From Hippea alviniae EP5-r (GTDB lineage: Bacteria; Campylobacterota_A; Desulfurellia; Desulfurellales; Hippeaceae), in assembly GCF_000420385.1 (NCBI RefSeq), contig NZ_ATUV01000001.1:868001-932000 (forward strand): 64,000 bases of DNA, in the 5' to 3' direction. Made by a program: the position numbers and the translations under genes. Under the pieces are notes generated by a model, which made no database searches, was not told the origin of the DNA, and was given only the letters and a program-made list of their open reading frames with translations. This document shows, piece by piece, positions 51,405 to 60,280 of the stretch (its first letter is position 1; each line of letters begins with the position of its first letter).

Positions 51405-52687
51405 ATACCAGGTTATTATTTGTAATACTGCTCATCATAATTTCTTTTTTTGTTATACTAAAATCTAAATCCGTAAAAAGCGAAAAGGATTTCACTATAG
51501 CAAACAGAAAACTAACATCTTTCGGAGTGTCCAATGCAATAATAGGAACACTGGTTGGTGGAGCAGCAACAATAGGAACCGTTCAGTTGGCATATATGTA
51601 CGGATTGGCAGCCTGGATATTCACCCTTTTTAGCGGAGTAGCTTGTCTTTTTTTGGGAGCTTTTTTCTCAAAAGCGCTCAGAAGCGAAGAGGTGGTAACC
51701 GTATCGGAGTTTATAGGCAATAGATTTGGAAATAAAGCAAGGGTTTATACAAGCGTATTAAGCTCTATAGGTATGTATATACACATAGTAGCCCAGTTTT
51801 TAGCCGCCATGTCAATCATAGAGACAGTGTTCGGTTTCAATGCAACAACAAGCATGATAATAACCTTTATTCTGATACTGATATTTGTTTTAAGCGGCGG
51901 AATAGTAAGTTCTTCTCTGGTAGGGGAGATAAAAACATTCATGCTGTATATCTTAATGTTACTATCCGCGTCCATAGTAATAATAAAACAAAACGGAATA
52001 TCAAATCTAATCGGTTCATTGCCGGATAAAAACATGCTTAGTATCTTTTCATACGGCAAATCAAAAGCAATTCAGGACATGATAGCAATGGTCATAGGCG
52101 TTCTTTCAACCCAAACTTATCTACAGGCAATATTCTCGGCCAAAGATGTCAGAACGGCAAGAAACGGAGCTTTTTTAAGTGCCCTATTAATTCCACCAAT
52201 CGGGCTTATGGGAATACTGGTCGGCATGTATATGAGAATTCACCATCCAGAACTAATAAACAACACTGTTGTTGTATTTCCGTATTTCCTAAAATTTTAC
52301 TTTAACCCCATACTCACCGCTCTGTTTTTATCGTTTCTAACGATAATAACACTGGGAACGGCTTCGGGTCTGACTCTTGGAGTAACAACCAACCTATATG
52401 TTGACGTATTAAAAAGCCTTATAAAAAAGAATACATCAAAAGGAATAAGAGAAATAAAAACCACAGGTTTTTTAGTCCTTGCATCATCCATGTTTTTAGT
52501 GGTTACGGGACTTCACTCCGCTATTCTAAGCTGGAGCTATCTCTCAATGGGCATAAGGGGCTCTGCGGTATTCCTTCCACTACTTTTCATAATCCTGATA
52601 AAAGATGAGGAAATTTTAAACAAACTCAAACCTATCATTTTCATTGCGCCGTTTTTTTACATTTTAATAAGCATAGCGTTGAGATGA
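51389..52687 (+). CDS. Sodium:solute symporter family (SSS) transporter
   Basis: The 432-residue membrane protein has about 11-12 hydrophobic segments. The N-terminal SEKDFTIANRKLTSFGVSNAIIGTLVGGAATIGTVQLAYMYG is the SSS arrangement, where the GG/AT unwound region of TM1 helps bind Na+ and substrate. It is shorter than the usual 480-550 residues. The substrate is not evident; PutP/PanF-like solutes are possible. It overlaps mazG by 16 bases and the next gene by 4. Confidence 0.86.
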   Translation: MQEIINTRLLFVILLIIISFFVILKSKSVKSEKDFTIANRKLTSFGVSNAIIGTLVGGAATIGTVQLAYMYGLAAWIFTLFSGVACLFLGAFFSKALRSEEVVTVSEFIGNRFGNKARVYTSVLSSIGMYIHIVAQFLAAMSIIETVFGFNATTSMIITFILILIFVLSGGIVSSSLVGEIKTFMLYILMLLSASIVIIKQNGISNLIGSLPDKNMLSIFSYGKSKAIQDMIAMVIGVLSTQTYLQAIFSAKDVRTARNGAFLSALLIPPIGLMGILVGMYMRIHHPELINNTVVVFPYFLKFYFNPILTALFLSFLTIITLGTASGLTLGVTTNLYVDVLKSLIKKNTSKGIREIKTTGFLVLASSMFLVVTGLHSAILSWSYLSMGIRGSAVFLPLLFIILIKDEEILNKLKPIIFIAPFFYILISIALR

Positions 52688-53304
52688 TAACATTAACATT
52701 AAAAGAGAGTCTAAATAAAAATAGATGTCCGATATGCAGAACAATCTCAATGGAGTTTGACAACTTCCTATGGTGGTTTGAACGCGAAGGATATCACGAG
52801 ATTTCGTCACTTAAAGCTCTAAAAGATGCACCCTTTATCTGCAAAAGACATGCAGATAAAATAGAGAGATTGAAAGACAAATTAAACAACACATTTGAGT
52901 TTTTAATAAAAAACGATGCTGAATTCCTTATGCTTCTTAAAGAAACAAATCCCAGAAAAAGAAAAAAACTTCTAAATCAGCCATTCGAATGTAGATTATG
53001 TTTAGAGGAAAAAAGGATAGAAGAGCTTGCCGTTGAACAGTTTGTAAAGGATAAAGACATACAAAAAGCATATTTTGAATCGGCCGCCCTTCTATGCAGA
53101 AGACATCTCTTTGCTGTTTTAAAAATCTCTAACCCAAATCTATCAGAGATGCTCATAAAAAAAACATTGGACTTTTTTCATGAAAGCTCCAGTTTACTTG
53201 AAAACTTCTTCAATAAACTTGATTACAAATCAAAGAACAAACCATCAGATGAAGAAAGAGACGCCTACATCAAGATACTCAAATACTTCTCGGTTGATTT
53301 TTAA
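52684..53304 (+). CDS. Hypothetical cysteine-motif protein (two CxxC/CxxH modules)
   Basis: I do not recognise this 206-residue protein with certainty; it resembles DUF6062-type proteins. It has two similar modules: CPIC near residue 17 followed by CKRH near 56, and CRLC near 101 followed by CRRH near 140. Each could bind a zinc ion. No signal peptide or membrane segment is visible. It is coupled to the SSS transporter by a 4-base overlap, so a role linked to that transport step is possible but unproven. Confidence 0.75.
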   Translation: MITLTLKESLNKNRCPICRTISMEFDNFLWWFEREGYHEISSLKALKDAPFICKRHADKIERLKDKLNNTFEFLIKNDAEFLMLLKETNPRKRKKLLNQPFECRLCLEEKRIEELAVEQFVKDKDIQKAYFESAALLCRRHLFAVLKISNPNLSEMLIKKTLDFFHESSSLLENFFNKLDYKSKNKPSDEERDAYIKILKYFSVDF

Positions 53305-53504: not shown

Positions 53505-53533
53505 TTTACAAATAGATAAATTTTTGATATATA
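53505..53533 (+). promoter_or_regulatory. Promoter of the giant VWA gene
   Basis: TTTACA (53505-53510) and TATATA (53528-53533) are 17 bases apart. A short leader with GAAGGAGTGG precedes ATG 53562, so the gene has its own transcript. Confidence 0.7.
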
Positions 53534-53561
53534 ACTTAAAAAATATTGAAGGAGTGGAAAC

Positions 53562-56500
53562 ATGAGACGGCAGGTGTTGTTGATTCTGTTTTTTATATTT
53601 TTCTCTGTAAACTCTTTCTCAGCTGATTATTACAAACTGCCCTTCAAAGACAATCTGACAAAAATCGGCTTCTGTAAAAATACAAGCAAATCAATCGACA
53701 GCGAATATTTTTTCGGAAAAAGGATATACGGATACATTTTCAAATGCAAAGGAGATAAAAATAAAGAAATAAAAAACCTATTTAAAGAGCTGGGTTTTAA
53801 AATAAAAGAGAAAGAGAGCGGATTCTTTGCAGTAAAAAAACTAAAAGATGAGAACATATGGATAGACTTTTCACCTAACAACGAACATCAACTAAAAATA
53901 GCAAGGCAGGTTATACTTAAAAACGGAAGTTCGATTGAGTTTAAAGCAAAAAATGACAATCCAATCTATTTTTACTTAGAGCATCCAGAAGATAAATTCC
54001 TAAGTCTCATAGTAAATATTCCAAAAGACTCAAGGCTTGATATAGAGATTGAAGGCGAGATAAAGCATGGTAAACTAAAAAAAACCATCCACTATAATCA
54101 AGAATTAAACGGAGAATATTCAACAAAATACATGTTATACGACCTACCACAGCTTGAAGGAGTATTTTTATGCTCTGCTACCCTATCATCAAAAAAATAC
54201 CCTGCACAATTCAAAATACAGGTAATAGAAAATGGCAACTTAAAGAAACTAAATAATTCTGATAAAATAGGCGGCATAATTCTAAAAAACGTGCCTTATG
54301 GCTCTGCCGTTGTAAAGCCACAGGAAGGTGTAAGCATATATCACCCGAATATAACCGAAAGGGACTACAGCGGCGATTTAACGCCAAACGGAGATACGAT
54401 ATTCTGGCTGCCAGAAGGCAGATGGACAATCGAAGTCAAACCATTTGAAGAAAACCAGATAAACCTAACAACGCTAAAAAGTCATCTCATACCCGTTTTT
54501 GGCGGATATTTGACGACAGTAAGCTGGCCTGCTGCAATGAAGCATCTGTTTGAATCCGAAGACAATGTAAAATTGCAAATCTTAAAAGTCTTACCGAAAG
54601 ACAACAACAGACTCACCATCGATGTCTCACTTCTAAACTTCAAAGAGAGCTATGAACCAGATAAAAACGACTTTGAGATACTTGAGTCGGGCAAAAAAGG
54701 AGAAGTCCTATCCATCGAGAGATTAAAAACTCCGCCACAGATTGCCATTCTGCTTGATTCGTCAGGCTCAATGAGAAAATCGATGGCAAAGGCAAAAAGA
54801 ATAACAGCAGAGTTTATAAAAGGTCTGCCGAAAAACTCAGAAGTTTATCTGATAGATTTTGACACAAAACCAAAACTTATAAGCAAAGGTTCACCATCTC
54901 AGGCTTTAAAAGCTTTAAAAAGAGTAAAATCCGGCGGTGCAACTGCACTTTACGATGCAATAGTCTTAGGCATAGAAACATTAAAAAACAAAAATAGACC
55001 AACCCTAATCGTATTCACAGACGGTATGGATTCAAATTATAACGACACAGCAAGGCAGAGCAAAGCGACAAAACAGGAAGTATTGAATTTAATAAAAGAG
55101 TCCAACATACCTACATTCACGATAGGTTTTGGTAAAAACCCAGATAAAGAGACACTCTCAAGAATAGCAACTCTTGGAAAAGGCCAGTATTACTATGCAA
55201 AAGACTCCAAAATTCTAAAAAGTGTATTTGAAAGCATAAAAAACAATCTTGGTCATCAGTGGAGAATAACATACAAAAGACCAAAGGACACCTTAGATTC
55301 CGATGTCCCGATAATTGCAATGATGATAGACAACAGCGGCTCGATGGAAGAGAAGATGGAAAAAACAAGGGAAATACTGGCAGGTTTTATAGAGAGTCTG
55401 CCTGAAGATTATCTTGTTCAACTCTTTATATTCAGCAACGATGTTGAAGTAAAGCAGGTATTAACAAACGACAAATTAGCCCTGCTTCAGGGTATATCAG
55501 AGATGAAAGATTTATCCTCAACAAACATATTTGGCTCGATAAAGGCAGCATACGATTTTCTGCATGCCATCCCATCGACAAACAAATATCTAATCTATTT
55601 AACGGACGAAGCTCTTAATGTCGAGAAATCACAAAAAGACAACCTGAATCTACTGCTCAAAAAGATAAAAGACGACGGAATCAAAAGTCTATGGATAGGC
55701 ATGGTAAATGAGAAAAACGAAAAGATATTCAAAGATGTGGCAAAACTTTCAAACGGCAGCTATGTCATAACACCATCCTGCGAAAAGATAGGCGAAGCCT
55801 TGCAAAAACTATCCGACAAAATAGCCAAATCAAAACAGTCAAATCTCCACACATTAAGGGTGATATACAAACAGACAGACAGGTACGGAAGAATTCACTT
55901 CTATACAACGGCAACACTTATTCCATTTAAACAGAGCAAAAGCGAAAAAACAGCGGCGATAGAAGGCATAACCTACAAAAAAACAGAAAAACTAAAACCA
56001 TACGACGGAACAATAGGAAGATTCATAAGTGGTAGCGATGCTATAGGCAGGCAGGTTCAGGTTTTAAAACGCATTCCGTTGAACATATCGGCAAGCAACA
56101 AGGCAGTAAAGATGACTGTAAAAGAGATAGTCTTTTTAAGCAAACTAAAAGGCGTAAAAGCAGAAAGCGGCAAAAGATTCATGGCAATGATAGTAAAATT
56201 CGAAAACATACTAAAACCACAGAAGGTTGTTGTTTATCCCAACGGCTCAACTCACCCTGCAAGCTGGATAAACAACTCCGAAAAAAGCGCAAGAACAATA
56301 GAGAAAATACCGGATTATCTCATACCCGATGCACGACTGCATATATTCTTAAAATGGAACAATAATCAATCGTTTCCCGTATCCGAAGCGACATACTTAG
56401 CCCAGATGCCATTAATTCTGCCAGGCGAAAACGAGATATACATAAGGCCAGAACATCCAGTTGAAGGCACGCTCATCTTTATGGTGCCTGATGAGTTTAT

Positions 56501-59500
56501 GAAACAGAGCTCACTTGAGCTTTACGATACGGCATACGGACACATAATCCTGCCCATAAGCGGAACGGCAAAGATAACAAAAGAGAAGATTTTACACCTT
56601 CCCAAACAGCCCACAGCAAAGCTATCGGATACATTCTCTCTAAGGATGATAGGATATACCGACACAACAAAGATAAACAACTTTGAAACAAATGAAAAAA
56701 CCTTAATAAGAATAGCAAGATGCAATCTTATCTCAAAGGTTCAAGCTCACCTTTCGATAAATCCACAAAAGAGATTTTACCTTGCCATTTCGACAAACAA
56801 AGGAGACTTTTTCTTCAAACTCCATCCTATAACCAAGGACATACCGTTTGGACTTTATAAACCAAGATTGATAACGCCGGGTTCTTTTAATACGATAGCT
56901 CTTGCATTTGAGATACCAAAGACACTAAAAGACAACCCGTTCTCTCTTGTTGTTGACTTAAAAGGCGGTGCAAAAATCTTAAATGTCAAAAACAGCCAGA
57001 AAACAGAGCCAAAACCACTGACAGAAGCAGAAGCAGAAGGAATAAAGCTCTATGTAAACAACATTTATGTATCAAAAAACAGCAGTCTTTTGCCAGACAA
57101 CTCGCTAATCGTAGATTTAACCCTAAAGGACAAAAAAGACAACTTCTCAACATCATTGGTTAATTTCCTTGGCTTAAACATAACAGAAGAAGCAAAAAAG
57201 AGACTAAAGGGCGAGTTTCAGTCATCCATCGAGAAAAATACAACAGACTCAAAAAGTCTTGCAAGTTTTGGGTTTAACCGAGTAGCACCAACACCAGGAG
57301 ATGTTGAGCCTTCGTTCAAGAATTTCATAACGGAATTCAGTTATGAAACACTTGTCATAAACGGCCAGACAAGAAGAGGGTTTCTTATCTTTGAACTTGA
57401 CAAAAAAACAAAACCGGAAGATTACACGCTCTCATCGCCAATCTTTAAGAACCTGCACTTCAGAATAAAAAACACAAAAGAGTTTAAAGATTATGACCTG
57501 CTTGCTAAAATTACGGAATACTCAACTGATTCGGATTTTCAGGACAGGTTAACAGAAGCAGTAAACAGACTTCAAGCAATAAGGGAAGCAGAAGGATTCA
57601 AAAAACCCGGAAGCATAAAAGTAGCGTCCATATCCCTTGATAAAAGCTCTGCAGGCATAAACATAAACCCGCCGAATATAACAACCGCTGGCGGCAAAGA
57701 GTGGTCAGGCATAAAAAACATAAGCCAGCTAAAAGAGCTATTAAAAAACATAAAGCTCATACCGTCAAATTGGGACGCATGGAAAACAACATACTCGCCT
57801 GAATCCGTCTTAACCCAAAGATGGGCAACAGAAAACGAGATAGCGTACATGAACTGGCTTGTATTAAACAGAGAAGGATTTTTAACAAAACGCCTAACGC
57901 TCTCTTTAACCGAAAAGGGTAAAAAAGCCGTCTGCAACTTTTTCAAGCCATATAGGTGCAACCTAAATGAACTGCCTGCAATCCAATACGAAGATGACAA
58001 CGGCAATAGACACACGCTCGTTTTACCATTCTTCAAAGAGAAATACGAGATAAACTCATACTTTAAAAACGAAGAAGAAGCAGATTCAGACTCATACCCA
58101 ACAGCAACGGTCGAAGTATCCGTTGTTGCCGAGAAACTCTCATCATCAAGAAACGAAGCTCTATCAGAGATGGCAAGCGCACTCGCATCGGAAGAGTCAG
58201 AAAAGACAGAAACCATAACACTAATTTCGGAGAAGTATCGACTCAAAGATTTGAGCATGGGATTTATTAATATAGGCTTTGCAAAGGTATTTGACCCATC
58301 AAAAGGCGTGGTTGAAAAAGCCATTATAGACTCACCTATCGGAAGAAAAGTATCCGAAGAGTCATTAGAGTTAACAAAATACAAACCGTTAAGGATAGAG
58401 CTAAAATTCTACACGCCCGATAAAGACTTCAAAACCGTTAGAGAGCTCGGCAACAATCAGCTACTGGAAGATTACTTCTTCACCGTTGCAATAAACACGC
58501 CCGATTTAGACAACAAAGCGGTAAAAGAGCTTCAAAAAAAATGGACAACAATTTACAAAGATACGCCAAACCCGGATATAATATCTTCTCTTAAGTGGTT
58601 TTCTGAAGGCGTCATAACCCGTTTTGTCTCATCTCAAACGGCCTATGAGAAAAAGATTGCAGACAAACTCAACATCAAGCTAAAAAGAGTTAAAAATCCA
58701 AGAATTGTTATCGTCACGATGTTTACAGGTTTAAAAATGAAAAAACCTATAGCTACGATAGATATACTGAATCCCTACCCTTATGTTGAAGGAGATAAAA
58801 AAGCGATTCATAGCTTTAATATTATGGCCGGATTCTATTACACCAGACTCGAGAAGTTTGCCCTACCGGGCGGATTCAACGCCGTCGATGTTATGAGACT
58901 TTTGCCAAAAGATACGAAGTTTCTGTTTTTAGATCCAGAAGAGTTAGAAGAGTTTTCAAAAATACTGAAAAAAGAAGGATATCCTGCCTGGATAGTTGAA
59001 CACTTTGAAGATTGCGATAATTTTGTCATCTTCCCGACAAAACCTTTAAAGTTTGGCAAATATTACAAAACCGCATGGCTTGAGATAACCGAAGATTATA
59101 AGGTATTCTCATATTTAGATACGGGAGAAAAAGGCAGCATAACAGAACATATCATAGCAAACGACGAGATAGCTCAGCTTGCAGATTACATGGTCGGCTT
59201 CTGGATGGGTGTTCAGACATCTGTCTGGTCAACCGCAGCCTTCTCCTTAGAACTTGATAACTGGGAAGATATAAAAACACAGGCTCATGCCTTTGCAAGA
59301 CAGCTTGCAAACTATTTAACCGCAGTTCTTGAAGGTGGTGAAAGATTAAAACCAGACTTAGAAAAAGCTCAAAAAGTAATTTTAGACCACGATGTGCTTG
59401 GTGCCTTAGGAGTTGATAAAATGCAATATGGCGGATTTAGTAAGGAAAAGTTAGAACAAGAGATAGCTCAAGATGCACAAAACAGGGGGTTTTCAAGCGA

Positions 59501-59630
59501 TGATGTTCAGGATATGCTTAATGAAAAAGACATAAACAAAATACTTGATAGTCTGAAAGGTAAGCTCAAAGAGAAGTATCTCGGATTCACAAACGGATAC
59601 AAGGACGGAGTGGATTATTACTTCAAATAA
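53562..59630 (+). CDS. Giant exported protein with two von Willebrand factor A domains
   Basis: This 2022-residue protein has a signal peptide (about 1-20, RRQVLLILFFIFFSVNSFSA). Residues about 20-390 are unclassified and beta-rich. VWA domain 1 (about 393-560) has an intact MIDAS: D399-S-S-G-S403, the threonine in GGATALYD, and FTDGMDS. VWA domain 2 (about 583-760) has D590-N-S-G-S594 and SSTNIFGS, LTDEA. Residues 770-2022 match no domain I know; they include a Glu/Ser-rich stretch near 1500-1560 and an amphipathic helical C-terminus. There is no LPXTG, membrane anchor or obvious beta-barrel. VWA domains bind protein ligands through a metal ion, so an extracellular or periplasmic assembly/adhesion role is plausible. 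It is monocistronic. Confidence 0.88.
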   Translation: MRRQVLLILFFIFFSVNSFSADYYKLPFKDNLTKIGFCKNTSKSIDSEYFFGKRIYGYIFKCKGDKNKEIKNLFKELGFKIKEKESGFFAVKKLKDENIWIDFSPNNEHQLKIARQVILKNGSSIEFKAKNDNPIYFYLEHPEDKFLSLIVNIPKDSRLDIEIEGEIKHGKLKKTIHYNQELNGEYSTKYMLYDLPQLEGVFLCSATLSSKKYPAQFKIQVIENGNLKKLNNSDKIGGIILKNVPYGSAVVKPQEGVSIYHPNITERDYSGDLTPNGDTIFWLPEGRWTIEVKPFEENQINLTTLKSHLIPVFGGYLTTVSWPAAMKHLFESEDNVKLQILKVLPKDNNRLTIDVSLLNFKESYEPDKNDFEILESGKKGEVLSIERLKTPPQIAILLDSSGSMRKSMAKAKRITAEFIKGLPKNSEVYLIDFDTKPKLISKGSPSQALKALKRVKSGGATALYDAIVLGIETLKNKNRPTLIVFTDGMDSNYNDTARQSKATKQEVLNLIKESNIPTFTIGFGKNPDKETLSRIATLGKGQYYYAKDSKILKSVFESIKNNLGHQWRITYKRPKDTLDSDVPIIAMMIDNSGSMEEKMEKTREILAGFIESLPEDYLVQLFIFSNDVEVKQVLTNDKLALLQGISEMKDLSSTNIFGSIKAAYDFLHAIPSTNKYLIYLTDEALNVEKSQKDNLNLLLKKIKDDGIKSLWIGMVNEKNEKIFKDVAKLSNGSYVITPSCEKIGEALQKLSDKIAKSKQSNLHTLRVIYKQTDRYGRIHFYTTATLIPFKQSKSEKTAAIEGITYKKTEKLKPYDGTIGRFISGSDAIGRQVQVLKRIPLNISASNKAVKMTVKEIVFLSKLKGVKAESGKRFMAMIVKFENILKPQKVVVYPNGSTHPASWINNSEKSARTIEKIPDYLIPDARLHIFLKWNNNQSFPVSEATYLAQMPLILPGENEIYIRPEHPVEGTLIFMVPDEFMKQSSLELYDTAYGHIILPISGTAKITKEKILHLPKQPTAKLSDTFSLRMIGYTDTTKINNFETNEKTLIRIARCNLISKVQAHLSINPQKRFYLAISTNKGDFFFKLHPITKDIPFGLYKPRLITPGSFNTIALAFEIPKTLKDNPFSLVVDLKGGAKILNVKNSQKTEPKPLTEAEAEGIKLYVNNIYVSKNSSLLPDNSLIVDLTLKDKKDNFSTSLVNFLGLNITEEAKKRLKGEFQSSIEKNTTDSKSLASFGFNRVAPTPGDVEPSFKNFITEFSYETLVINGQTRRGFLIFELDKKTKPEDYTLSSPIFKNLHFRIKNTKEFKDYDLLAKITEYSTDSDFQDRLTEAVNRLQAIREAEGFKKPGSIKVASISLDKSSAGININPPNITTAGGKEWSGIKNISQLKELLKNIKLIPSNWDAWKTTYSPESVLTQRWATENEIAYMNWLVLNREGFLTKRLTLSLTEKGKKAVCNFFKPYRCNLNELPAIQYEDDNGNRHTLVLPFFKEKYEINSYFKNEEEADSDSYPTATVEVSVVAEKLSSSRNEALSEMASALASEESEKTETITLISEKYRLKDLSMGFINIGFAKVFDPSKGVVEKAIIDSPIGRKVSEESLELTKYKPLRIELKFYTPDKDFKTVRELGNNQLLEDYFFTVAINTPDLDNKAVKELQKKWTTIYKDTPNPDIISSLKWFSEGVITRFVSSQTAYEKKIADKLNIKLKRVKNPRIVIVTMFTGLKMKKPIATIDILNPYPYVEGDKKAIHSFNIMAGFYYTRLEKFALPGGFNAVDVMRLLPKDTKFLFLDPEELEEFSKILKKEGYPAWIVEHFEDCDNFVIFPTKPLKFGKYYKTAWLEITEDYKVFSYLDTGEKGSITEHIIANDEIAQLADYMVGFWMGVQTSVWSTAAFSLELDNWEDIKTQAHAFARQLANYLTAVLEGGERLKPDLEKAQKVILDHDVLGALGVDKMQYGGFSKEKLEQEIAQDAQNRGFSSDDVQDMLNEKDINKILDSLKGKLKEKYLGFTNGYKDGVDYYFK

Positions 59631-59639
59631 CAAAAGACT

Positions 59640-59656
59640 GGGTGGCTAAGCCACCC
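59640..59656. terminator. Hairpin between the converging VWA and small exported genes
   Basis: GGGTGGC (59640-59646), loop TAA, GCCACCC (59650-59656) is a perfect 7-base-pair stem. T-rich sequence follows on the plus strand and, after three bases, on the minus strand, so it may terminate both genes. Confidence 0.65.
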
Positions 59657-59662
59657 TTTGAA

Positions 59663-60280
59663 TTATTTTCTAAAGAGTGATTCTAACGCTTCAAAATCGA
59701 AATTTTTGATAAAATCTAAAGCCTCTTTGTAATCCATATTCTCAAAATTCGCTCCAAGCATGGCAAAAGCAGGCTCGTTTTTGAGTTCCTCAGCTTTAAG
59801 AAGAGGCACAACTATCGTCCCGCTATGCTCTATCTTGTCATAACCGATACCTATCTTATAACCGTTCATTTCAAAAGCTTTTAAAAACTCCTTGTCGGAA
59901 TCAACGGTAACACCCTGAGAAAACGGAGCCCAGCTCATAAGAACCATAGAACCATTTAATACGGTAATGCCAATTTTTTTATTGCCGCTTGTATAATCCC
60001 TTTCAACCGCGACAAGCTCACCGTTTGGAGTCTTCATGTTTGAACCAGAACATTTTTCTGCCTGCCAACCTTCCACATCAACTATATACTCGCACACCTC
60101 TTTATAACTCGGAACCTTCCATTTTTCATTAAACTGTTTTTGAGCTGCCTGATTTGTCCCCATTGAAGGTATGCTAACACCCGGTGGCATAGCTGGCATA
60201 CCACCCGTTGGATACTCATTAGCATAACTTACACCACCCAAAAGACCAACTATAGCAGCACCTATAATCAGCTTCTTCAC
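59663..60280 (-). CDS. Small exported protein of unknown function
   Basis: The 205-residue product has a clear signal peptide (MKKLIIGAAIVGLLGGVSYA, cleavage probable after YA). A Pro/Met/Gly-rich linker follows (about 22-45), then a compact alpha/beta domain with two cysteines (VCEYIVDVEGW, EKCSGS) that could form a disulfide. I do not recognise the family. The start is GTG 60280, supported by a strong GGGAGGTGA. It converges on the giant VWA gene and is divergent from the cyclase; a functional tie to either is only a guess. Confidence 0.82.
   Translation of the reverse strand: MKKLIIGAAIVGLLGGVSYANEYPTGGMPAMPPGVSIPSMGTNQAAQKQFNEKWKVPSYKEVCEYIVDVEGWQAEKCSGSNMKTPNGELVAVERDYTSGNKKIGITVLNGSMVLMSWAPFSQGVTVDSDKEFLKAFEMNGYKIGIGYDKIEHSGTIVVPLLKAEELKNEPAFAMLGANFENMDYKEALDFIKNFDFEALESLFRK

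Follow-up and report, generated by a model that had tools for sequence, protein, structure and literature searches.

A question raised by the 64,000-nucleotide stretch of the Hippea alviniae EP5-r genome analysed here (contig NZ_ATUV01000001.1, positions 868,001 to 932,000; hereafter "the window") is what a single gene for a 2022-residue protein with two successive von Willebrand factor type A (VWA) domains might be doing in this bacterium. A first-pass annotation, made from the sequence letters alone, had described an exported protein of this size with intact DxSGS metal sites at residues 399-403 and 590-594, and this description holds: the open reading frame runs from an ATG at position 53562 to 59630 on the + strand (as do all parts of the protein given below, in window coordinates), it begins with a Sec-type signal peptide, and D399-S-S-G-S403 and D590-N-S-G-S594 lie exactly there. 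A search of the genome finds one copy of the gene. We find that it belongs to a widespread and apparently undescribed family with invariant metal sites, and we lean towards the view that its product is an envelope-tethered, divalent-cation-dependent, ligand-binding adhesin or scaffold.

A widespread family with two conserved metal sites

Relatives of the giant protein are encoded at no fewer than about 56 loci in named genomes, as detected by profile scan. The family proteins are roughly 1,800-2,250 residues long, their hosts are anaerobic bacteria, and their identity to the window protein is 25-45%, mostly over the full length where the contig permits. Among the matches listed, the phyla that carry the family are Thermodesulfobacteriota, Bacillota (mostly Clostridia), Rifleibacteriota, Campylobacterota (Sulfurovum), Myxococcota, Synergistota and Caldisericota; many of these loci are contigs of metagenome-assembled genomes and some of the taxonomic labels may be wrong. 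Family membership and wide distribution are solidly established. Single-sequence scans of genome contigs and of plasmids had found no relatives because their patterns were too specific, and the family came to light with a profile built from Rifleibacteriota relatives, drawn first from one distant genome and then from 11 genomes of one bacterial family (Candidatus Riflebacteria).

Both VWA domains are detected by Pfam (two matches, E 1.1e-26 over the whole protein), the first at residues 390-572 (54729..55277) and the second at residues 580-765 (55299..55856), and a comparison of the two profiles returns a match probability of 99.8. Each contains a metal-ion-dependent adhesion site (MIDAS) that the alignment of relatives shows to be complete: DSSGS at residues 399-403 (54756..54770) with T461 and D487 in the first, and DNSGS at residues 590-594 (55329..55343) with T654 and D682 in the second. 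All 58 aligned relatives share every residue of the first site (D, S, S, G, S, T, D). At the second, D590, S592, S594 and D682 do not vary among 57 relatives, and T654 is kept by 55 of the 57. Since overall identity is so low, both sites must be under strong selection, and both would be expected to bind metal. Homologues with conserved VWA metal sites, the lack of which the first-pass annotation had named as counting against its proposal, do therefore exist.

No known family covers the giant protein, which apparently represents an undescribed family and a new architecture made from known domain types; the literature searched, which left out most subscription papers, contained no account of a bacterial family of giant double-VWA proteins. 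The protein does exceed the curated cut-off of TIGR03436 (acidobact_VWFA; 84.1 bits versus 81.25) in two stretches, the better of which spans residues 368-579 and thus VWA domain 1, but that model is about 324 residues long, has no function attached and leaves the rest of the 2022 residues outside it, and membership is a domain-level label only. The gene is less a lone orphan than an entry point to a widespread family with neither a name nor an assigned function, whose members, each about 2,000 residues long, keep both MIDAS sites intact and occur in many phyla, for the most part in anaerobes. One copy, that of Sedimenticola endophacoides (L112, 9656-15751), is broken over several frames, likely through decay of the gene or sequencing errors.

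Location in the envelope

Computed from the sequence, the N-terminus of the giant protein, MRRQVLLILFFIFFSVNSFSADYY, is a typical Sec signal (residues 1-20, 53562..53621) with a hydrophobic core and RR in its n-region. Hydrophobicity averaged over 19 residues peaks here and nowhere else in the protein exceeds 1.2 on the Kyte-Doolittle scale. Neither an LPXTG sorting motif nor a transmembrane segment, features sought by comparison with RrgA-type proteins, was found at the C-terminus. Nearly all complete N-termini in the family have a signal peptide, a lipobox or an N-terminal anchor. Gram-negative members have ordinary signal peptides, with a lipobox in one member from the Deltaproteobacteria, and in Clostridia most members carry either a lipobox or a membrane anchor at the N-terminus. 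The giant protein is thus an envelope protein. The anchoring of the clostridial members indicates an outward orientation in these monoderm hosts, and in Gram-negative Hippea the protein may face outward as well.

Architecture of the remaining residues

The first-pass annotation had found nothing recognisable in the roughly 1250 residues that follow the VWA pair. This remains true of sequence profiles: Pfam, NCBIfam and PDB profile searches assign this part to no known functional family, and searches of Pfam and PDB with the C-terminal half and with its separate domains are empty except for weak DUF4352 and Transglut_core matches. It does not extend to folds, where comparison points to telokin-like sandwiches and a transglutaminase-like domain. 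These comparisons used AlphaFold2 models built from alignments of 55 relatives for residues 21-860 (predicted local distance difference test score, pLDDT, 87.7; predicted template modelling score, pTM, 0.86) and of 44 relatives for residues 840-2022 (pLDDT 79.0, pTM 0.54).

Ahead of the VWA pair, residues 125-385 (53934..54716) are predicted to form a beta-rich region, with pLDDT mostly above 85 and no convincing match in Pfam or PDB searches. An alignment of 824 columns with an inter-alpha-inhibitor heavy chain (6fpy) was returned by Foldseek, but with a root-mean-square deviation of 22, and no VIT match is found in Pfam. Behind the VWA pair the model suggests a series of beta-sandwiches. The first, telokin-like (DUF4352) and spanning residues 840-1014 (56079..56603), comes from Foldseek, its limits being placed from predicted strands; the second, residues 1015-1145 (56604..56996), comes from a profile match to the first (E 1.8e-5, probability 78), which supports the view that the two are a repeat; and a probable third, residues 1150-1305 (57009..57476), from predicted strands and a partial profile match to the first. 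Foldseek matches the C-terminal model to DUF4352-type structures with a probability of 1.00, and BFVD also returns DUF4352 proteins. Pfam DUF4352 (PF11611) is matched by 7 of 44 relatives at E <= 0.01 (best 1.1e-4) and not by the window protein itself (gathering cut-off 25.9 bits). The lipoproteins YcdA, YjhA, YxkC and CD630_09570, which we take to be of DUF4352 type, share the beta-sandwich fold with residues ~840-1300, but are short and stand-alone and have no VWA domain.

To residues 1310-1520 (57489..58121) we assign a transglutaminase-like fold, on three grounds: the order in which its elements are predicted, a Q-[GNR]-W motif, and Pfam Transglut_core, which 2 of 41 relatives match weakly; Foldseek matches the C-terminal model to the CPR-C4 protease (7ob6, 7ob7) with a probability of 1.00 and E 0.02-0.04. 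Active transglutaminases carry Q-C-W, and the window protein has Q-R-W (57816-57824). The candidate catalytic Cys position, 1420, is G, N or R in 48 of 48 relatives, the candidate catalytic His varies among them, and no alignment column has Cys in 30% of relatives, so that the Cys-His pair of active enzymes was not found. Because no Cys is conserved, the domain is probably a pseudoenzyme, which argues for a role in binding over one in catalysis. The predicted fold resembles that of the CPR-C4, vasohibin and transglutaminase-like cysteine proteases, from which the family differs by its Gly, Asn or Arg; CPR-C4 has been described as distantly related in structure to vasohibins (PMC9108980), and vasohibins as transglutaminase-like cysteine proteases (PMC4866520).

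A further beta-sandwich is suggested by the predicted structure alone at residues 1540-1645 (58179..58496). It is followed by an alpha/beta domain at residues 1650-1920 (58509..59321), which is conserved in the family and was without a match in the PDB profile search or in any known family. Beyond a variable linker the proteins close with a shared signature, GFxxGFxxGVxxYF or something near it, in 37 of the 41 relatives that are complete; in the window protein the alignment of C-termini shows it as GFTNGYKDGVDYYFK (59583..59627). Run as a regular expression against the six-frame translation of the fetched loci (3.7 million residues), this signature hit only family members and one chance frame of 9 amino acids. 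It may dock back onto the protein itself or onto a partner.

What the giant protein may do

The case for an adhesin or scaffold draws on the invariant metal sites, the export signals and anchors and the lack of a conserved Cys described above, and on likenesses to the VWA pair. In Foldseek the N-terminal model comes closest to PTMP1 (E 9e-18, 14-15% identity), the proximal thread matrix protein of the mussel byssus (PDB 4cn8/4cnb), which likewise has two successive MIDAS VWA domains; PTMP1 is eukaryotic, has ~400 residues and lacks a C-terminal rod, and the likeness is one of fold and tandem arrangement only. A profile match (E 4e-7) leads to PilB of Streptococcus sanguinis, a modular type IV pilin and extracellular bacterial VWA protein whose MIDAS binds Mg2+/Mn2+ and functions in adhesion (PMC8179133). 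The giant protein differs in having an ordinary Sec signal, not a class III signal, and no match to a pilin family. A second precedent, Bd0875 of Bdellovibrio, is an exported surface adhesin that needs its MIDAS metal site (PMC11003981), but it is a small single-VWA lipoprotein with a cap and has neither a rod nor C-terminal domains. By analogy with these proteins, two Mg2+/Mn2+-dependent MIDAS heads would bind a ligand, and two or three telokin-like sandwiches forming a rod, together with the dead transglutaminase-like domain and the C-terminal alpha/beta domain, would hold the heads at the envelope, so that the protein could join the cell to a surface, to another cell or to an envelope component. 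If the adhesin reading is true, the family is a candidate for the attachment of sulfate reducers, Clostridia and related anaerobes to surfaces or to one another.

Several considerations weigh on the other side. MIDAS VWA domains also work in intracellular or periplasmic assembly and in metal insertion, as does NorD with MoxR. The fold matches of the C-terminal half, though high in probability, are weak by E-value (1e-3 to 1e-2). Gram-negative members could remain in the periplasm, and no gene for an outer-membrane export partner was found adjoining the giant gene. A caution for the MIDAS interpretation comes from PilB itself, where the metal is dispensable for some ligands in vitro (PMC8179133).

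A broader form of the adhesin reading, which we offer as a tentative suggestion, is that these giant envelope proteins make up a hitherto undescribed class that spreads horizontally among diderm and monoderm anaerobes. The two MIDAS heads, intact in every case, would then work with the telokin-like rod, the pseudo-transglutaminase and the C-terminal signature peculiar to the family as one self-sufficient device for cell-cell or cell-surface attachment in anaerobic consortia. The first-pass annotation had suggested that the protein may be the core of an undescribed surface or periplasmic system, and the compared loci do not point to one of several genes: no partner gene conserved throughout the family was found across them, the Gram-negative members have no conserved neighbour, and the sole recurrent cassette is that of clostridial loci (L098, L103, L111, L114 and L126). 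Its gene content varies by locus and includes small lipoproteins, (double) Zn-ribbon proteins, a solute-binding protein, a Cache-LuxR regulator and what we take to be an AIM24-like protein.

This cassette, in several loci, resembles an envelope-stress cassette through its lipoproteins, Zn-ribbon and AIM24-like proteins, and so lends something to the rather unlikely alternative that the giant protein is a periplasmic assembly or chaperone factor, whose VWA pair, in the style of Bat/MoxR-associated proteins, would recruit an enzyme of the envelope or a component of secretion and not an external ligand. Profile similarity to BatB (3ibs) and a plain Sec signal in a Gram-negative host, with no surface-sorting signal, are also in keeping with such a factor. 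However, a MoxR AAA+ partner adjoins the MoxR-associated VWA genes (Bat/NorD/CoxE), and the earlier observation that no secretion, pilus, MoxR or chelatase gene adjoins the giant gene is upheld; the Hippea genome has no AAA_3 (MoxR) match above the cut-off. Partner genes vary across the family, and much of the length is a beta-sandwich rod, which is more typical of adhesins.

We consider it improbable that the protein is a sensor, passing ligand or force on its VWA heads to a signalling partner in the envelope, for which the mechanosensing of PilY1 offers a comparison (PMC8806160). Large membrane sensor-like genes are divergent from the giant gene at L080 and L108, the clostridial loci pair the Cache-LuxR regulator with a binding protein, and a PAS/GGDEF gene lies 0.75 kb from the giant gene in the window, but such genes are abundant, the signalling neighbours vary by locus, and no transmembrane signalling domain was found in the giant protein.

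PilY1, likewise large, exported and equipped with a VWA domain, is encoded alongside minor pilins. A role of its type for the giant protein, as a tip adhesin that primes type IV pili and senses surfaces, is the least probable of these alternatives and was set aside: one Rifleibacteriota locus does have three minor-pilin-like genes directly upstream of the giant gene (L096, 6342-9776), but the giant protein has no beta-propeller in Pfam, Foldseek or predicted strand order, the window locus lacks pilin genes, lipoproteins are common among the Gram-positive members, and the Hippea genome has a PilY1-like protein of its own (1268 residues, with a DYSGS VWA domain) in an operon with four minor-pilin-like genes (L167, 3120-6926; G000:C1). 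With PilY1 and minor pilins elsewhere and no AAA_3 match above the cut-off, the evidence points neither to the pilus tip nor to a partnership with MoxR.

Absence from relatives and horizontal acquisition

Homologues across Desulfurellia had been anticipated, and none was found in the 24 other genomes of the phylum that were searched, eight congeners included; there was one weak match to the C-terminal part, in G011 (E 0.00175). Two congeners with single-contig genomes (G004 and G008) have an empty site where the window has the 6.3-kb gene: the segment 53305..59662 is absent and the homologues of the flanking genes, for proteins of 206 and 205 residues, are ~27 bp apart or touching. The closest relative among the matches listed is that of Thermodesulfatator autotrophicus (45% identity). 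In a tree of 792 columns and 50 rows it is the sister of the window protein with support of 100, the pair falls within a Thermodesulfobacteriota set with support of 99, and the window protein is separate from the Campylobacterota/Dethiosulfatarculus clade that holds Sulfurovum (support 100). Tree position, empty site and absence from relatives in the phylum together favour horizontal acquisition, and the gene was most likely acquired from another phylum, loss in every relative being the less likely course. Against this, neither its guanine-plus-cytosine content (38.0%, where the window averages 37.2%) nor its codon use looks foreign, so that the transfer would have to be old or the relatives would have to have lost the gene. 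No flanking repeats or traces of mobile elements were found around it, the Thermodesulfatator neighbours have no relation to those in the window, and a scan of viral contigs returned generic VWA matches only, which leaves a phage origin without support. Elsewhere in the tree, a Rifleibacteriota contig (JAAYVD010000083.1; L104, L096) encodes two giant paralogues ~20 kb apart, which fall in its two deepest halves.

Transcription signals and neighbouring genes

The gene is a single-gene unit. A Shine-Dalgarno sequence, GAAGGAG (53548..53554, +), lies 7 nt 5' of the ATG, and a palindromic, bidirectional terminator hairpin with a 7-bp GC-rich stem lies between convergent genes at 59640..59656. Of the promoter and hairpin end that had been claimed for it, the hairpin is thus borne out; promoter-like matches nearby are at the level of shuffled sequence (16 versus 18.1), and a promoter of its own is plausible from the 257-bp gap upstream.

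Its neighbours include an SSF-family symporter, the PAS/GGDEF protein and, presumably, dnaK, dnaJ and a mazG-like gene. The 205-residue exported protein encoded downstream (59663-60280, - strand) was compared with a small exported protein beside a Sulfurovum homologue, and a relationship was unsupported; it has no Pfam match and is kept in four genomes of the genus. The Cys-rich 206-residue protein encoded upstream (52684-53304) has a weak DUF6062 match and two sets of CxxC plus CxxH-like motifs (CPIC..CKRH and CRLC..CRRH), by which it probably binds Zn, and its gene is kept in 7 of 9 genomes of the genus.

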